A stretch of DNA of 64,000 nucleotides from Rubripirellula obstinata (GTDB lineage: Bacteria > Planctomycetota > Planctomycetia > Pirellulales > Pirellulaceae). The notes below the pieces were generated by a model that saw only the letters and a list, made by a program, of their open reading frames with translations, ran no database searches and had not been told where the DNA came from. Shown here piece after piece: positions 9,632 to 34,364 of this stretch. Position 1 is the stretch's first letter. Each line of letters starts with the position of its first letter. A program made the position numbers and the translations under genes. The stretch covers positions 1-64,000 of the forward strand of contig NZ_LWSK01000008.1 in NCBI RefSeq assembly GCF_001642955.1, read 5' to 3'.

Positions 9632-9660
9632 TCCTGATCGCTATTTGCCGCCATCTCCTG

Positions 9661-10250
9661 TAGGCCGGAACAAGCCGCTTCGGCGCAGTTCCGGCAACTG
9701 CATGGTGCTGCGTTGTAATGCCGGAACTGCGCAAAGCTTGTTCCGGCCTACATCTCCTGTAGGCCGGAACAAGCCGCTTCGGCGCAGTTCCGGCAACTGC
9801 ATGGTGCTTCGTTGGAATGCCGGAACTGCGCAAAGCTTGTTCCGGCCTACAAGCTCCTGTAGGCCGGAACAAGCCGCTTCGGCGCAGTTCCGGCAATTGC
9901 ATAGTGCTGCGTTGGAATGCCGGAACTGCGCAAAGCTTGTTCCGGCCTACAAGCTCCTGTAGGCCGGAACAAGCCGCTTCGGCGCAGTTCCGGCAATTGC
10001 ATGGTGCTTCGTTGGAATGCCGGAACTGCGCAAAGCTTGTTCCGGCCTACAAGCTCCTGTAGGCCGGAACAAGCCGCTTCGGCGCAGTTCCGGCAACTGC
10101 ATGGTTCTGCGCTGGAATGCCGGAACTGCGCAAAGCTTGTTCCGGCCTACAAGCTCCTGTAGGCCGGAACAAGCCGCTTCGGCGCAGTTCCGGCAATTGC
10201 ATAGTGCTTTGTTGGAATGCCGGAACTGCGCAAAGCTTGTTCCGGCCTAC
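9661..10250. repeat. Six tandem ~100-bp palindromic units
   Basis: Units begin at 9661, 9760, 9860, 9960, 10060 and 10160; the first is 99 bp and the others 100 bp. Each has arms gtaggccggaacaagc + gcgcagttccggca pairing with tgccggaactgcgc + gcttgttccggcctac, so every unit can fold into a long interrupted hairpin. Units differ at a few loop positions only. Single copies of the same family are at 40626-40713 and 55031-55066. Open frames across the array (e.g. RKACSGLQAPVGRNK-like repeats) are artefacts of the repeat. The array fills the gap between the glycosyltransferase and the ThuA gene. Confidence 0.95.
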
Positions 10251-10339
10251 ATCAGTCCGCTTTCAAGACACGACGGTGAGTTTCGGATACGATCAATTGT
10301 TGTGCTCGTTTCGTTTGATCTGTTTCTACTTGTGTCGCG

Positions 10340-30412: not shown

Positions 30413-30943
30413 CTAAGACTCATCGCTCGAATCGTTCTTTTCACCTTGCCGCTGTTCCAAACCAAGCTCGGACAGCGGAACTGCTTTGCCGTCCGCCCAA
30501 AGCGATTCGAGGTCGTAGTATTCGCGTGTTTCTTCATCGAACAAATGAATCACCACGCTGCCGTAGTCGAGCACGATCCAGCGACTTTCGTCGTAACCTT
30601 CGATGCCCAATCGCTTGTCCTCCAAGCCTTTTTCCAACGCGTCATCAATCTGTTCGCTAATCGCGTGCAATTGCCGACGACTGGTTCCGGTGGCGAGGAC
30701 AAAAAAGTCGAACTCGGCGGATTGAGCACAGACGTCGATGACCATCACTTCGGTCCCGTTATTGTCGAGCGCTACTCGCGCCGCTTCGGTCGCCAACTTG
30801 CGACCATACTCGACACCCAAAGGTCTAATCGCGCGCGAGGCACAGCCCAGCGGACTGACGGGTTTGTCCGTTGCTGCAGCTTGATCGGGTTCCGTTGATG
30901 GGGTTGAATCGACTGGAGTTTCTTGGTTGTGGCTGGATTCCAC
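30413..30943 (-). CDS. rsfS: Ribosomal silencing factor RsfS (Iojap/YbeB)
   Basis: RsfS binds ribosomal protein uL14 and blocks subunit joining when nutrients are scarce. The family core occupies residues ~55-160: KLATEAARVALDNNGTEVMVIDV, DFFVLATGTSRRQLHAISEQIDDAL, then WIVLDYGSVVIHLFDEETREYYDLESLW, which ends in the diagnostic tail. The first ~50 residues are an extra Ser/Thr/Pro-rich leader and the last ~15 are acidic. The frame starts with GTG at 30943; a start nearer the core cannot be excluded. Located upstream of argS, same strand. Confidence 0.92.
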   Translation of the reverse strand: MESSHNQETPVDSTPSTEPDQAAATDKPVSPLGCASRAIRPLGVEYGRKLATEAARVALDNNGTEVMVIDVCAQSAEFDFFVLATGTSRRQLHAISEQIDDALEKGLEDKRLGIEGYDESRWIVLDYGSVVIHLFDEETREYYDLESLWADGKAVPLSELGLEQRQGEKNDSSDES

Positions 30944-31117: not shown

Positions 31118-31603
31118 ATGGCCGATTGGTTAGAACCCGGTTCAAAAGCCCCCGCGTTTACCCTGACAGACGACCAGGGCCAGAAGGTTCGCTTGGCAGA
31201 CCTAAAAGGGAAGCCTGTCGTCGTCTATTTCTATCCTCGCGACGATACGCCGGGCTGCACCAAGGAAGCGTGTGCATTTCGTGACCGATACGCCGAGATC
31301 CAAGAACTGGGCATCCAGTTGCTTGGCGTCAGCGGTGACAGTGCCGAAAGCCACGTCAAGTTTCGCGAAAAGTATTCGTTGCCGTTCCCATTGCTGGTAG
31401 ACGCCAAAAACGCGATGAGCGAAAAGTACGGTGCCTACCGCGAGAAGAACATGTACGGCAAAAAATCAATGGGCATCCAACGCAGCACCTATCTGATCGA
31501 CGCCGAAGGCAAGATCGCCAAAGTATGGAAGCGAGTCAAAGTCGACGGCCACGACCAGCAAGTGATCGACGCTGCGCGTCAGGTATTAGGTATTAGCGAT
31601 TAG
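31118..31603 (+). CDS. bcp: Thioredoxin-dependent peroxiredoxin (Bcp/PrxQ type)
   Basis: A ~161-residue atypical two-Cys peroxiredoxin that reduces hydroperoxides with thioredoxin. KAPAFTLTDDQGQKVRL is followed by VVYFYPRDDTPGCTKEACAFRD, where the first Cys is peroxidatic and the second, five residues on, the resolving Cys of the PrxQ class. The ATG at 31118 is preferred over the frame's TTG at 31031 because the family begins at MADWLEPGSKAP. The last codons and the stop (QVLGISD) consist of ATTAGG-type heptamers related to the array at 31854-31965. It is convergent with yidC. Confidence 0.94.
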   Translation: MADWLEPGSKAPAFTLTDDQGQKVRLADLKGKPVVVYFYPRDDTPGCTKEACAFRDRYAEIQELGIQLLGVSGDSAESHVKFREKYSLPFPLLVDAKNAMSEKYGAYREKNMYGKKSMGIQRSTYLIDAEGKIAKVWKRVKVDGHDQQVIDAARQVLGISD

Positions 31604-31611
31604 GCATTAGG
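31581..31611 (+). repeat. Four degenerate heptamers overlapping the bcp 3' end
   Basis: In exact 7-base phase: aggtatt, aggtatt, agcgatt, aggcatt, then agg. The consensus aggNatt is the reverse complement of the ctaatcc-type unit of the array 31854-31965, so the two form an inverted pair about 240 bases apart. The stop codon of bcp lies inside it. Confidence 0.75.
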
Positions 31612-31693
31612 AAAAGTGGCACACCGCTCCGCAGTCGGTGCTGAGGCCATGCGACCGCAGGCGTTCCCCAACCCCGTGAAGGGTTTCTAAACT

Positions 31694-31781
31694 GTTTAAC
31701 CGCGTGGGCATCGCCCCGCGCGTCCATGCGGGGTGTAAGGCGAGGGGCGAAACGCGCGGGGCGATGCCCACGCGGTTAAAC
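31694..31781. repeat. Palindromic repeat, family 4, perfect 30-bp arms
   Basis: Arms 31694-31723 and 31752-31781 are exact reverse complements (gtttaaccgcgtgggcatcg...). An outer pair, ccgtgaagggttt (about 31674-31686) and aaactcttcacgg (about 31806-31818), encloses it with one mismatch. Lies between the convergent bcp and yidC. Confidence 0.9.
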
Positions 31782-31853
31782 AAAACAATCGGCTTTTACT
31801 GGACCAAACTCTTCACGGCGTTGGGCGTTCCCCCTCAATCGTCTTTCTGGATG

Positions 31854-31965
31854 CTAACCCCTAACCCCTAACCCCTAACCCCTAATCCCTAATCCCTAAT
31901 CCCTAATCCCTAATCCCTAATCCCTAATCCCTAATCCCTAATCCCTAATCCCTAATCCCTAACCC
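31854..31965. repeat. 16-unit telomere-like heptamer array
   Basis: Sixteen uninterrupted 7-bp units: four ctaaccc, eleven ctaatcc, one ctaaccc. It ends 8 bases from the yidC stop. On the minus strand, the strand of the yidC mRNA, it reads GGGGTTA and GGGATTA repeats, with G-runs of three to four separated by three to four bases, which is compatible with stacked G-quadruplexes. Confidence 0.97.
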
Positions 31966-31973
31966 CTACTCTT

Positions 31974-34364
31974 CTACTTCCTCTTCGGCTTCTTGCGTTT
32001 GTTGGGGCGATCGAAGGTGGGTTCGGGACCGTTGACTTGGTCTTTGATTCGCTGAGCCAACGTGACCTTGGGTTTCTCGGTTGGCTTGGCGGTGCCCTCG
32101 ACCACGCCTTCGGGTGTGGCGAGGTCAAAGTGGGTTTTGCTGGGGATGGTTTTTTTCACCAACACTCGCTCGCAAATTCCCCACAGGCTGCTGGTGATGA
32201 AGTACAGGCACAATCCCGCTGGCACACGGAAGAAGAACAAGCCCATCATCAACGTCATGATGCTCATCATCTTTTGAGTCATCGCGGTTTGTTCATCGGT
32301 CGCTGGCGGCATGAACAATTTTTGTTGCAACAAGAACAACAACACAACAACCACTGGCAGGATATTGAAGTACGGGCCAAGCCATCCGGTACCGCGCCCG
32401 CCAAAGTAGTCCATCATCCAATCACCCCAGTAATTGAACATGTCGGGGCCAGCCAAGTTTGACGCCCAATCAAGACCGGGGAACAACGGTTGTTGACGCA
32501 ATTCGATATCGACCGACAAAGCTCGATAGAGCCCGATAAAAATTGGCAACTGCAAGAACATCGGCAAACAACCCGCCATCGGATTGAAACCAACTCGCTT
32601 TTGTAGGTCGCGTTGGGCAGCCATGCGAGCTTGGATGTCTTCTTTGTGCTGTTCAGCGATTTTTTTCAGCTCCGGTGCAAGCTCTTGCATTTTCTGAGCA
32701 TTCACGGCGGCTTTGCGTGACAGTGGGAACATTGCTCCACGAACAATCACCGTCAGCACGATGATCGCGACCGCGTAATTGCCAAAGAAACCGGCCAGAA
32801 CGTGCAACAGACCGGCCAACAAACTTGCGAATCGTGCGAACCATCCGTAGTAAACAGCGTCACCGAGGCCGTAATTGGCAAGAACATCGGGATCCTTTGG
32901 CCCGGCAAACATCCGCAAGCTTTGACGCATCGATCCGCCGGCCGGCACGGTCGCCGTTTCGGTATCCAGAAAGAACGACGTGTTGACGGCTCGTTCTTTG
33001 TGCCTGGGGATCTCATCCGGATCAACGATCAAGCCGACTGCGGCCCGCTTAAAACTCGTGAAGGAATTGTTGTCTTCTGCCGGGATGTAACCGACCGTGA
33101 AATACTGGGCATCGACGCCGATGTATTTTAGGTTTCGCGAATCAACACTGCCGTCGGGTGCGAAAATGGTTTGGAAAGGCTCGTCAACTTCTTTTCGAGC
33201 ACGTTTGAGCAGATTGAAACCGCTGATCAATTGGTGTCCATCGGCAGCGGTGCGATAGATGATGTCGCGTGCGGCGGCACCGGACCAATTGGGACTGATC
33301 TTGTTGCTGTACCACCAACCTTCCAACGTGACTCCGTTGGCACCTTCCAAGCGAATCGCCAAATCCTGTGCTTCTTCGCCAAGGTTGTCGAGCTGCACAT
33401 CCATGTCGACCGCGTATGAACCAGGCTTGATCGTATAAGAGCGTTTGAGTCGCACCGGCGATCCGCCGACGACCGCGGTTTCCTTCGCCGAAAGTTCCAA
33501 ATCAAATTCGACCGACTGCTGTTCATCGCCGGCTTCGACATCACTCGACGTCCAAACCAACTCAGTCGGATTGACTAGTTTTGGAATCGACAGCTTACTG
33601 GCCGGGATACTCTTGCGATTGATCTGTGCCAGCGTCATCAAACAAGATTGTCGCGATAGATTGCCGTCGATCTGATCGATGCCTGCATCGCTGGCCAGGC
33701 GGACCAGATCCAGCGGGTGATCGGAAAGCGTCGCCGTGATCGTAACTGGAGTGGAAGAACCTTCGCGAACGACTTCTAGTTTGACTTCGTCATCTGGTTT
33801 CGATTCGAGCAGCACATCATCGATGTCATTTCGATTGAGCACGGGTTTTGCGTCGACCGAAACGATGATGTCGCCGACCTTTAGTCCGGCGGTGTCGGCT
33901 GGTGTTCCCGGACCGACAACATTGACTTGGACACCATCGATTTCGGCGGCGGGTTGAGCCGCCAAGTAACCGAGGTAGCCCGATCGAACATCGACGCGGT
34001 GATATTTCAGCTTGCCTTTTTCATCTCGCTCGGTCAATTCAATCCGCTCGACCCCGGCACCTTCCGAATTGAGCGTCATCAGCATCAGATACTCTGATGC
34101 GGGGTCCATCGACCCCAGCGTGATCAGCTTCCCGGACTTGGGACGTGCCGCGGCCGCGTCGTCAGAAGCACCTAAGGCGTCTGCATTTTCTGAATCTTCG
34201 TCTTGATCGAGTGCTTCGGGATCGGCCAGCAAATTGTCGGCTTCGGCATTTTCCGCGACCGCGGGTGGACGCACTGGTTGGGGGCCGATGAGTCGCTGCA
34301 GCGAGATATAGAGCAGTAGGAACGCCGTCGAAGCGATGAAAAAGGTGAGCAGACGACGTTCCAC
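31974..34364 (-). CDS. yidC: YidC/Oxa1 membrane protein insertase with a PDZ domain
   Basis: A 796-residue inner-membrane insertase. Residues 1-25 form the N-terminal helix; an acidic linker (40-70) follows. The periplasmic domain contains a PDZ-like insert at about 144-212 ([29 protein letters not shown]), not normally present in YidC. The conserved five-helix core is at ~500-750: [23 protein letters not shown], the cytoplasmic helical hairpin, [25 protein letters not shown] and [18 protein letters not shown]. The basic tail (KRKKPKRK) suits ribosome contact. GTG start at 34364. Length exceeds E. coli YidC by ~250 residues owing to the PDZ and linkers. The 3' end abuts the heptamer array. 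Confidence 0.95.

Follow-up and report, generated by a model that had tools for sequence, protein, structure and literature searches.

The window, meaning the whole analysed stretch of 64,000 nucleotides, belongs to the draft genome of Rubripirellula obstinata (6.58 Mb, 307 contigs). The convergent genes bcp and yidC face each other in it across a gap of 370 bases, which is bordered on both sides by arrays of seven-base units and holds a separate inverted repeat in its interior (Table 1).

Table 1. Genes and repeats around the bcp/yidC gap, in window coordinates
Feature	Position	Strand	Remark
bcp, AhpC/TSA-type peroxiredoxin	31118..31603	+	final six residues VLGISD and stop codon inside left heptad arm
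left heptad arm, made up of four degenerate units and running over the bcp stop	31579..31610	+	
inverted repeat, perfect 31-nt arms, 28-nt loop	31693..31782	.	dispersed, REP-like, outside the heptad family
right heptad arm, 15 exact CCCTAA[C/T] units with partial edges	31854..31968	-	TTAG read on the sense strand of yidC
yidC, 60 kDa inner membrane protein family	31974..34364	-	convergent with bcp
rsfS, neighbour gene	30413..30943	-	

The array on the yidC side is real and nearly uniform, with 16.4 copies at 98% matches (TRF). Its exact units number 15 (31859-31963; 4 CCCTAAC and 11 CCCTAAT), one short of the sixteen reported in the initial annotation, and five bases, rather than the eight given there, separate its edge from the yidC stop codon (31974-31976, minus strand). 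The heptads at the bcp end read GGTATTA, GGTATTA, GCGATTA and GGCATTA; they share an ATTA(G) core and run inverted to the yidC-side array. They had been described as the last four heptamers of bcp, stop codon included, and as copies of the same unit. The inversion and the overlap with the stop (TAG, 31601-31603) hold, but none of the four is exactly GGGATTA and the fourth lies past the stop. The Bcp protein has 161 residues and a heptad-encoded end here, against 155-159 residues and different ends in eight full-length orthologues. By this protein comparison the heptad repeat has shaped the Bcp C-terminus, as had been proposed.

About 243 nt separate the two arms, which pair with each other when the bcp strand is folded in silico, in agreement with the suggested pairing across some 240 bases. 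The minimum free energy of this fold is -156.3, compared with -110.5 for 60 shuffles, and a large share of the energy comes from the separate inverted repeat. A 27-base core of the latter, GTTTAACCGCGTGGGCATCGCCCCGCG, is present again in many analysed stretches of the same genome, which gives this element its REP-like character. The only Rfam match in the gap, below threshold (mir-3180, E 0.15), falls on this inverted repeat and is taken as chance. The array on the yidC side is best explained as the right arm, in expanded form, of a pair of inverted heptamer arrays bracketing the gap.

The array was initially described as telomere-like and ideal for G-quadruplexes, and on that view could be an element regulating yidC and bcp. 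Read along yidC, every unit does carry a GGG, and the array fits the motif G3+N1-7. The same motif fits only 2 of the 62 heptad arms in this genome, so the G-quadruplex cannot be their common function, and the heptads of the bcp/yidC gap in two relatives (G001 and G012, described below) lack a regular GGG. A telomere would be expected at a replicon end; the array is internal to a 98,460-bp contig and lies between two genes, and the core common to the arms is TTAG. Such an element is extremely improbable. The fit of this one array to the motif stands, while the emphasis placed on it does not.

Heptamer arrays are neither telomeric nor unique to the bcp/yidC gap. A genome-wide search finds 151 matches to three ATTAGNN units with at most one mismatch, against 37 for the reversed pattern, a control which is itself inflated by arrays matching the reversed pattern in another phase. 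The ATTAGNN arrays are thus present beyond chance; for the GGG version the counts are 18 and 15, and the control is useless for the same reason of phase. Among the matches listed, other arrays are built of the units TTAGCNN, TTAGGNN, ATTAGGA and ATTAGTC. Counting the window pair, this genome has no fewer than 31 pairs of inverted arrays built on a TTAG core. An inverted partner accompanies 10 of the 12 array regions examined, and the remaining two (contigs C2 and C307) have none in the stretch examined. What the initial annotation noticed at a single locus belongs to a genome-wide family whose usual form is the inverted pair. It is the inverted partner that matters most at this locus, and the telomere or G-quadruplex reading is incidental.

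The orientation of the pairs is strictly fixed. For two TTAG units facing two CTAA units over a spacer of 15-45 bases, 68 overlapping matches point inward in this genome and 0 outward. In three stretches that together cover 449 kb and take in the window, none of 16 arms is inside an ORF, and adjacent arms face inward in seven cases and outward in none. Seven of these arms follow a stop codon in sense orientation and six precede a start codon in antisense, with none before a start in sense; two others lie after a stop in antisense, 57 and 62 nt away on the far side of the gap, and one is more than 100 nt off. The seven arms placed in another genome, G071, obey the same rule (four after a stop in sense, three before a start in antisense). 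For closer inspection, 30 pairs were collected with arms up to 90 nt apart and at least two exact units each; the loci come mostly from TTAG patterns, which biases this list toward paired TTAG arms, and the window pair and a pair on contig C242 with a 73-nt gap were left out. A called gene edge lies within 21 nt of 20 of the 30 left arms and 27 of the 30 right arms, by uncorrected ORF calls. Stops in all six frames occur in 27 of the 30 left arms; as a general rule such stops were rejected, since they are missing in all three arms tested from G001 and G012.

A scan for tandem runs at lags 4-12 confirmed both the period and the position. Runs of lag 7 occur at 10 of 560 gap edges in this genome and runs of other lags at none, in a sample that included two contigs already known to carry arrays (C1 and C242), and no run of any kind was found in 169 gap middles. 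In 20 small contigs picked without regard to arrays, lag 7 occurs at 4 of 248 edges and the other lags at none. The four runs at 250 edges of G012 all have period 7, whereas in G003 and G071 a few runs of other periods occur as well. Heptad-bearing edges are a small minority, and in the own genome the mean autocorrelation has no peak.

The strongest rival of a functional reading, though an unlikely one, is a neutral or selfish satellite. Such repeats would be seeded at gene borders, grow by replication slippage in gaps that tolerate them where coding sequence does not, and become inverted by template switching between arms, serving no function. Long homogeneous runs, such as the 15 units of the window or about 32 ATTAGGA units on C2, fit this account, as do the unpaired arrays on C2 and C307. 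The inward orientation, 68 to 0, and the placement of arrays at gap edges instead of gap middles speak against it.

The genes around the pairs are mostly co-directional. Raw ORF calls gave 24 co-directional, three convergent and three divergent pairs. A check of the neighbours reassigned four of them, three called divergent and one convergent, because short genes or tRNAs had been overlooked: rpmI-rplT, two genes of the flagellar rod type (the FlgB-like one recognised by eye, without a Pfam match), tRNA-Ile/tRNA-Ala, and clpP followed by a tRNA. This tRNA is tRNA-Glu in G001 and receives no assignment from ARAGORN in the own genome. After correction 28 of the 30 pairs are co-directional and two convergent. 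The baseline is 80 co-directional gaps out of 133 (50-250 bases, uncorrected ORF calls), from which the pairs differ with a binomial probability of 5e-5; 11 pairs of G065 and G076 (five convergent, three co-directional, three divergent by uncorrected calls) are excluded from the count. In 26 of the 28 co-directional cases the genes on both sides are backed by a Pfam or tRNA match. Four pairs lie in the S10-spc run (L23-L2, L22-S3, after L16 with S17 as the next confirmed gene, and L14-L24), three in a groEL-groES-groEL-dnaJ run on contig C13, and one between tRNA-Gly and tRNA-Thr upstream of an EF-Tu gene. The other co-directional sites include rpmI-rplT, ffh-rpsP, fliP-fliQ and tRNA-Ile/tRNA-Ala. 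At the last site, on contig C246 (L246, 1-2186), the order is tRNA-Ile, heptad pair, tRNA-Ala, 23S rRNA, and 16S rRNA is unmatched in the roughly 1.9 kb upstream, which may mean that the rRNA genes are not linked.

Gene runs of the S10-spc, groESL and tRNA type are normally transcribed through. By analogy with these known operons, the gaps holding pairs are probably co-transcribed. Strong terminators are unlikely at the pairs for the same reason, although stem-loops adjoining stop codons, with convergent genes at the window locus and two others, are what bidirectional terminators between genes would look like. The hairpin of an intrinsic terminator is followed by a U-tract. No terminator-like site was found in the bcp/yidC gap, the single site detected being inside bcp (1 against 0.9 expected), and the listed pairs have no U-tract after their stems, as checked by eye. 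With 28 of 30 pairs between co-directional genes, in the S10-spc and groESL runs and between tRNA genes, a terminator function is improbable.

The arms of a pair match each other as a class. The left arm has half or more of its length paired with the right arm in 28 of the 30 predicted folds. The fifth base of the unit is the same in both arms in 30 of 31 pairs (window included), an agreement reached by 2 of 5000 shuffles; it is a class effect, in which TTAGC goes with TTAGC and TTAGG with TTAGG. Co-evolution of the two arms at each locus was considered and rejected. A raw swap test gave -31.5 for native and -27.0 for swapped partners, with unequal arm lengths. With equal lengths, 668 of 20000 permutations over all own pairs were as good or better, and this difference arises only through the TTAGC/TTAGG class; the signal disappears when TTAGC pairs alone are compared (19130 of 20000), and G065/G076 show none either (17900 of 20000). 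Within a class the arms are interchangeable as partners and show no sign of base-by-base tuning. The satellite account gains from this missing partner specificity.

The loops bear on a third possibility, in which the pairs act as DNA: a protein-binding array, a cruciform, or a mobile palindrome of the REPIN kind. In the own genome the loops are almost unrelated on average (score 5.78 against 5.47 when shuffled), which argues against recent copying of one element, as does the preference for co-directional gaps against a DNA-level function. A slight excess of related loops (eight pairs scoring at least 10, with 3.0 expected) leans the other way. So do the loops of one relative, G039, which are related between copies as in a dispersed element, with a mean score of 7.89 against 4.94 for shuffled loops, reached by 0 of 50 shuffled sets. 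The G039 pairs (e.g., C10:700946-701002) are dispersed and of reversed polarity, with CTAATGT arms and GAAGA..TCTTC loops, and look like a copied element. For the family as a whole, a DNA-level role has a poor probability.

Other genomes contain similar repeats in a patchy distribution, which would be expected of a satellite. The four-unit TTAG pattern is present in 29 of 80 genomes searched, the own genome included; inward pairs were found in 18 of 147 genomes and outward pairs in 4. The control pattern read backwards counts partly other heptamer units and gives no clean null. Almost every genome keeps to one polarity: the own genome has 68 inward and no outward matches, and G039 has 0 and 48; G134 has 1 and 6.

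Four genomes of the same genus (G001, G012, G003 and G019) keep argS, rsfS, bcp and yidC together, so the gap can be compared directly. In G012 it carries TAGG/CAGG-type heptads inverted against CCTA-type ones, and in G001 inverted heptads with a GGTAAC-like unit. GTAAC-type pairs were rejected as a genome-wide unit of G001, where their single match is the yidC gap itself. For these two gaps the predicted folds fall below shuffles by a modest margin (z -1.3 to -3.1). No heptad signal was found at this gap in G003, which has GC-rich stem-loops instead, or in G019, whose fold over a stretch extended past the gap is close to shuffles. The gap between clpP and its tRNA has ATTAGCG-type arms in the own genome and GGNNACA-like arms in G001 and G012, inverted in all three; G003 has no heptad arms there. 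The lag-7 identity of the arms at orthologous gaps ranges from 0.36 to 0.97, with G003 at background.

Duplex energies between arms of three species average -31.6 within and -20.9 across species at the clpP gap, and -24.2 and -20.5 at the yidC gap. The clpP gap is the clear case, as the two arms of the own genome match one another but not the arms of G001 or G012. For three of the six left arms, a foreign right arm is a better partner than the native one; these are the left arms of the own genome and of G012 at the yidC gap, and that of G012 at the clpP gap. By this comparison of sequences, the inverted heptad layout recurs at two orthologous gaps with different units. The satellite account can accommodate the difference in units between species, but not easily the inverted heptads that three species share at the same two gaps.

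At other sites the relatives differ more. The L23-L2 gap in G001, G012 and G003 has heptads solely ahead of the start codon (by eye), and an inverted pair at L22-S3 was seen in none of 26 relatives, also by eye; the heptad element is accordingly dispensable, a point in favour of the satellite account. A second clpP pair was seen in no relative examined. On this distribution, pairs are gained and lost. The short heptads before the L2 start are of the types CCTAANN, CCTGANN and ACTGNNA (L291, L292 and L293), stand without a left arm, and recall the TAACTGA repeats discussed below. In G052, CCCCGAA-type heptads form a run on one side only, immediately 5' of the S3 start codon (L310). A further 44 named yidC loci cannot serve as orthologous gaps because none shows a bcp orthologue beside yidC within the flank, although five have a relative with 32% identity elsewhere in it. 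Among them only the planctomycete CA13 passed the threshold for heptads near yidC, with about 11 GGGAATG units upstream of the gene (L050, 4812-4891), adjoining a run of N; this unit resembles that of Xanthomonas.

Taken together, the pairs can tentatively be read, at a probability somewhat short of even, as RNA hairpins that space co-transcribed genes and are kept while slippage rewrites their unit. In the proposed mechanism, the transcribed UUAG arm and CUAA arm would fold into one long stem with about five paired bases per 7-nt unit, which would fill most of the gap between neighbouring genes. Such a spacer hairpin might stabilise the RNA between cistrons or help to process it; at convergent genes it would act at the 3' end of the gene. 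Slippage would alter the unit from species to species, and inverted arrays of like units would persist. Since the majority of pairs separate genes that run in one direction and are probably co-transcribed, the role is most likely post-transcriptional. A further, speculative idea is that RRM proteins bind UUAG. The analysis shows the repeats with their orientation and positions, the predicted folding, and different units at two orthologous gaps; that the genes are co-transcribed, that the hairpin forms in the cell and that it affects the stability or processing of RNA is inferred. The spacer reading is favoured by the exclusively inward orientation (68:0), the co-directional setting and the predicted folds (28 of 30 each), the agreement of the fifth base and the orthologous gaps. 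Against it count the swaps within the TTAGC class, the preference for foreign arms in three of six cases, the modest folds of G001 and G012, the unpaired arrays and the relatives lacking pairs.

A bolder version of the spacer reading, which is rather improbable, would have an active process write the inverted pairs at gene borders. Upon a change of unit, such as that from TTAGCGA in the own genome to the GGNNACA-like unit of two relatives at the clpP gap, both arms would be rewritten together, by hairpin-templated synthesis or by a dedicated polymerase, and RNA spacers of fixed geometry would be kept with arbitrary letters.

Several bacterial heptamer repeats are known, and the pairs share the architecture of one of them. 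The Xanthomonas and Nostoc heptamers GGGAATC and GGGGA(C/T)T are tandem and intergenic, form G-quadruplexes in vitro and have their function left open (Rehm et al. 2015, PMC4692102). They lie mostly within 50 bp of stop codons (sense) or start codons (antisense), and some overlap stops. Convergent inverted pairs are given as 70 in Xcc and 75 in Xac, and groES is one of the genes named as associated with repeats. A period of exactly 7, the intergenic position near gene ends, the strand rule and the convergent pairs are all found here. The planctomycete repeats differ from this account in host, in the core (TTAG, not GGG), in the G-quadruplex not being a common feature, and in a unit that varies between gaps and between species at one gap. 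What is new is a mostly non-G-quadruplex variant in a planctomycete. Orientation, position and pairing are kept with the G-tracts mostly missing, so the hairpin idea becomes separable from the G-quadruplex idea, a separation to which two close relatives with the same layout and other units at the same two gaps add. The S10-spc, groESL and tRNA gaps are places where RNA ends, half-life and processing are directly measurable.

The TAACTGA heptamers of Beggiatoaceae, Cyanobacteria and Bacteroidetes are intergenic, near start codons and also inside ribosomal-protein operons (MacGregor 2015, PMC4679880), with direct repeats and one inverted case in a Beggiatoaceae genome. The present heptads are likewise intergenic and occur in ribosomal-protein operons; unlike them, they have TTAG-core units and commonly form inverted pairs instead of direct repeats. 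The REP, BIME and REPIN palindromes are intergenic hairpins with proposed roles in mRNA stabilisation and termination (PMC3733652). The arms of the pairs differ from copied palindromes in being heptad arrays with almost unrelated loops, those of G039 excepted; a REP-like element is present in the bcp/yidC gap as the separate inverted repeat.

Cyanobacterial STRR heptamers are seven-base tandem units in intergenic DNA. The comparison with them drawn in the initial annotation captured a kinship with other bacterial heptamer repeats, but is only partly apt, as the host is a planctomycete and belongs to a different phylum. Calothrix heptanucleotides are mentioned in PMC4692102. The word stem planctomyc is absent from the texts of PMC4692102 and PMC4679880. 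In searches of the open-licence literature, by planctomycete names with repeat terms as well as by heptamer repeats, no paper beyond these two gave a title or opening of an abstract reporting such pairs.

Some arrays of the own genome change their unit abruptly. In an unpaired array (L097, 1692-2001), about 11 GTACTGA units switch to about 32 GGAATTA units, and in another (L104, 1581-1758), TTAGTCA changes into TTTGTCA. On contig C286 (L102, 2180-2379), a third unit, GTACTAG, occupies the inner end of a TTAGCGG arm. In the window itself, a 100-bp unit whose GTAGGCCGGAACAAGC-type ends look inverted is repeated six times in tandem at 9655-10251, with 96% matches.
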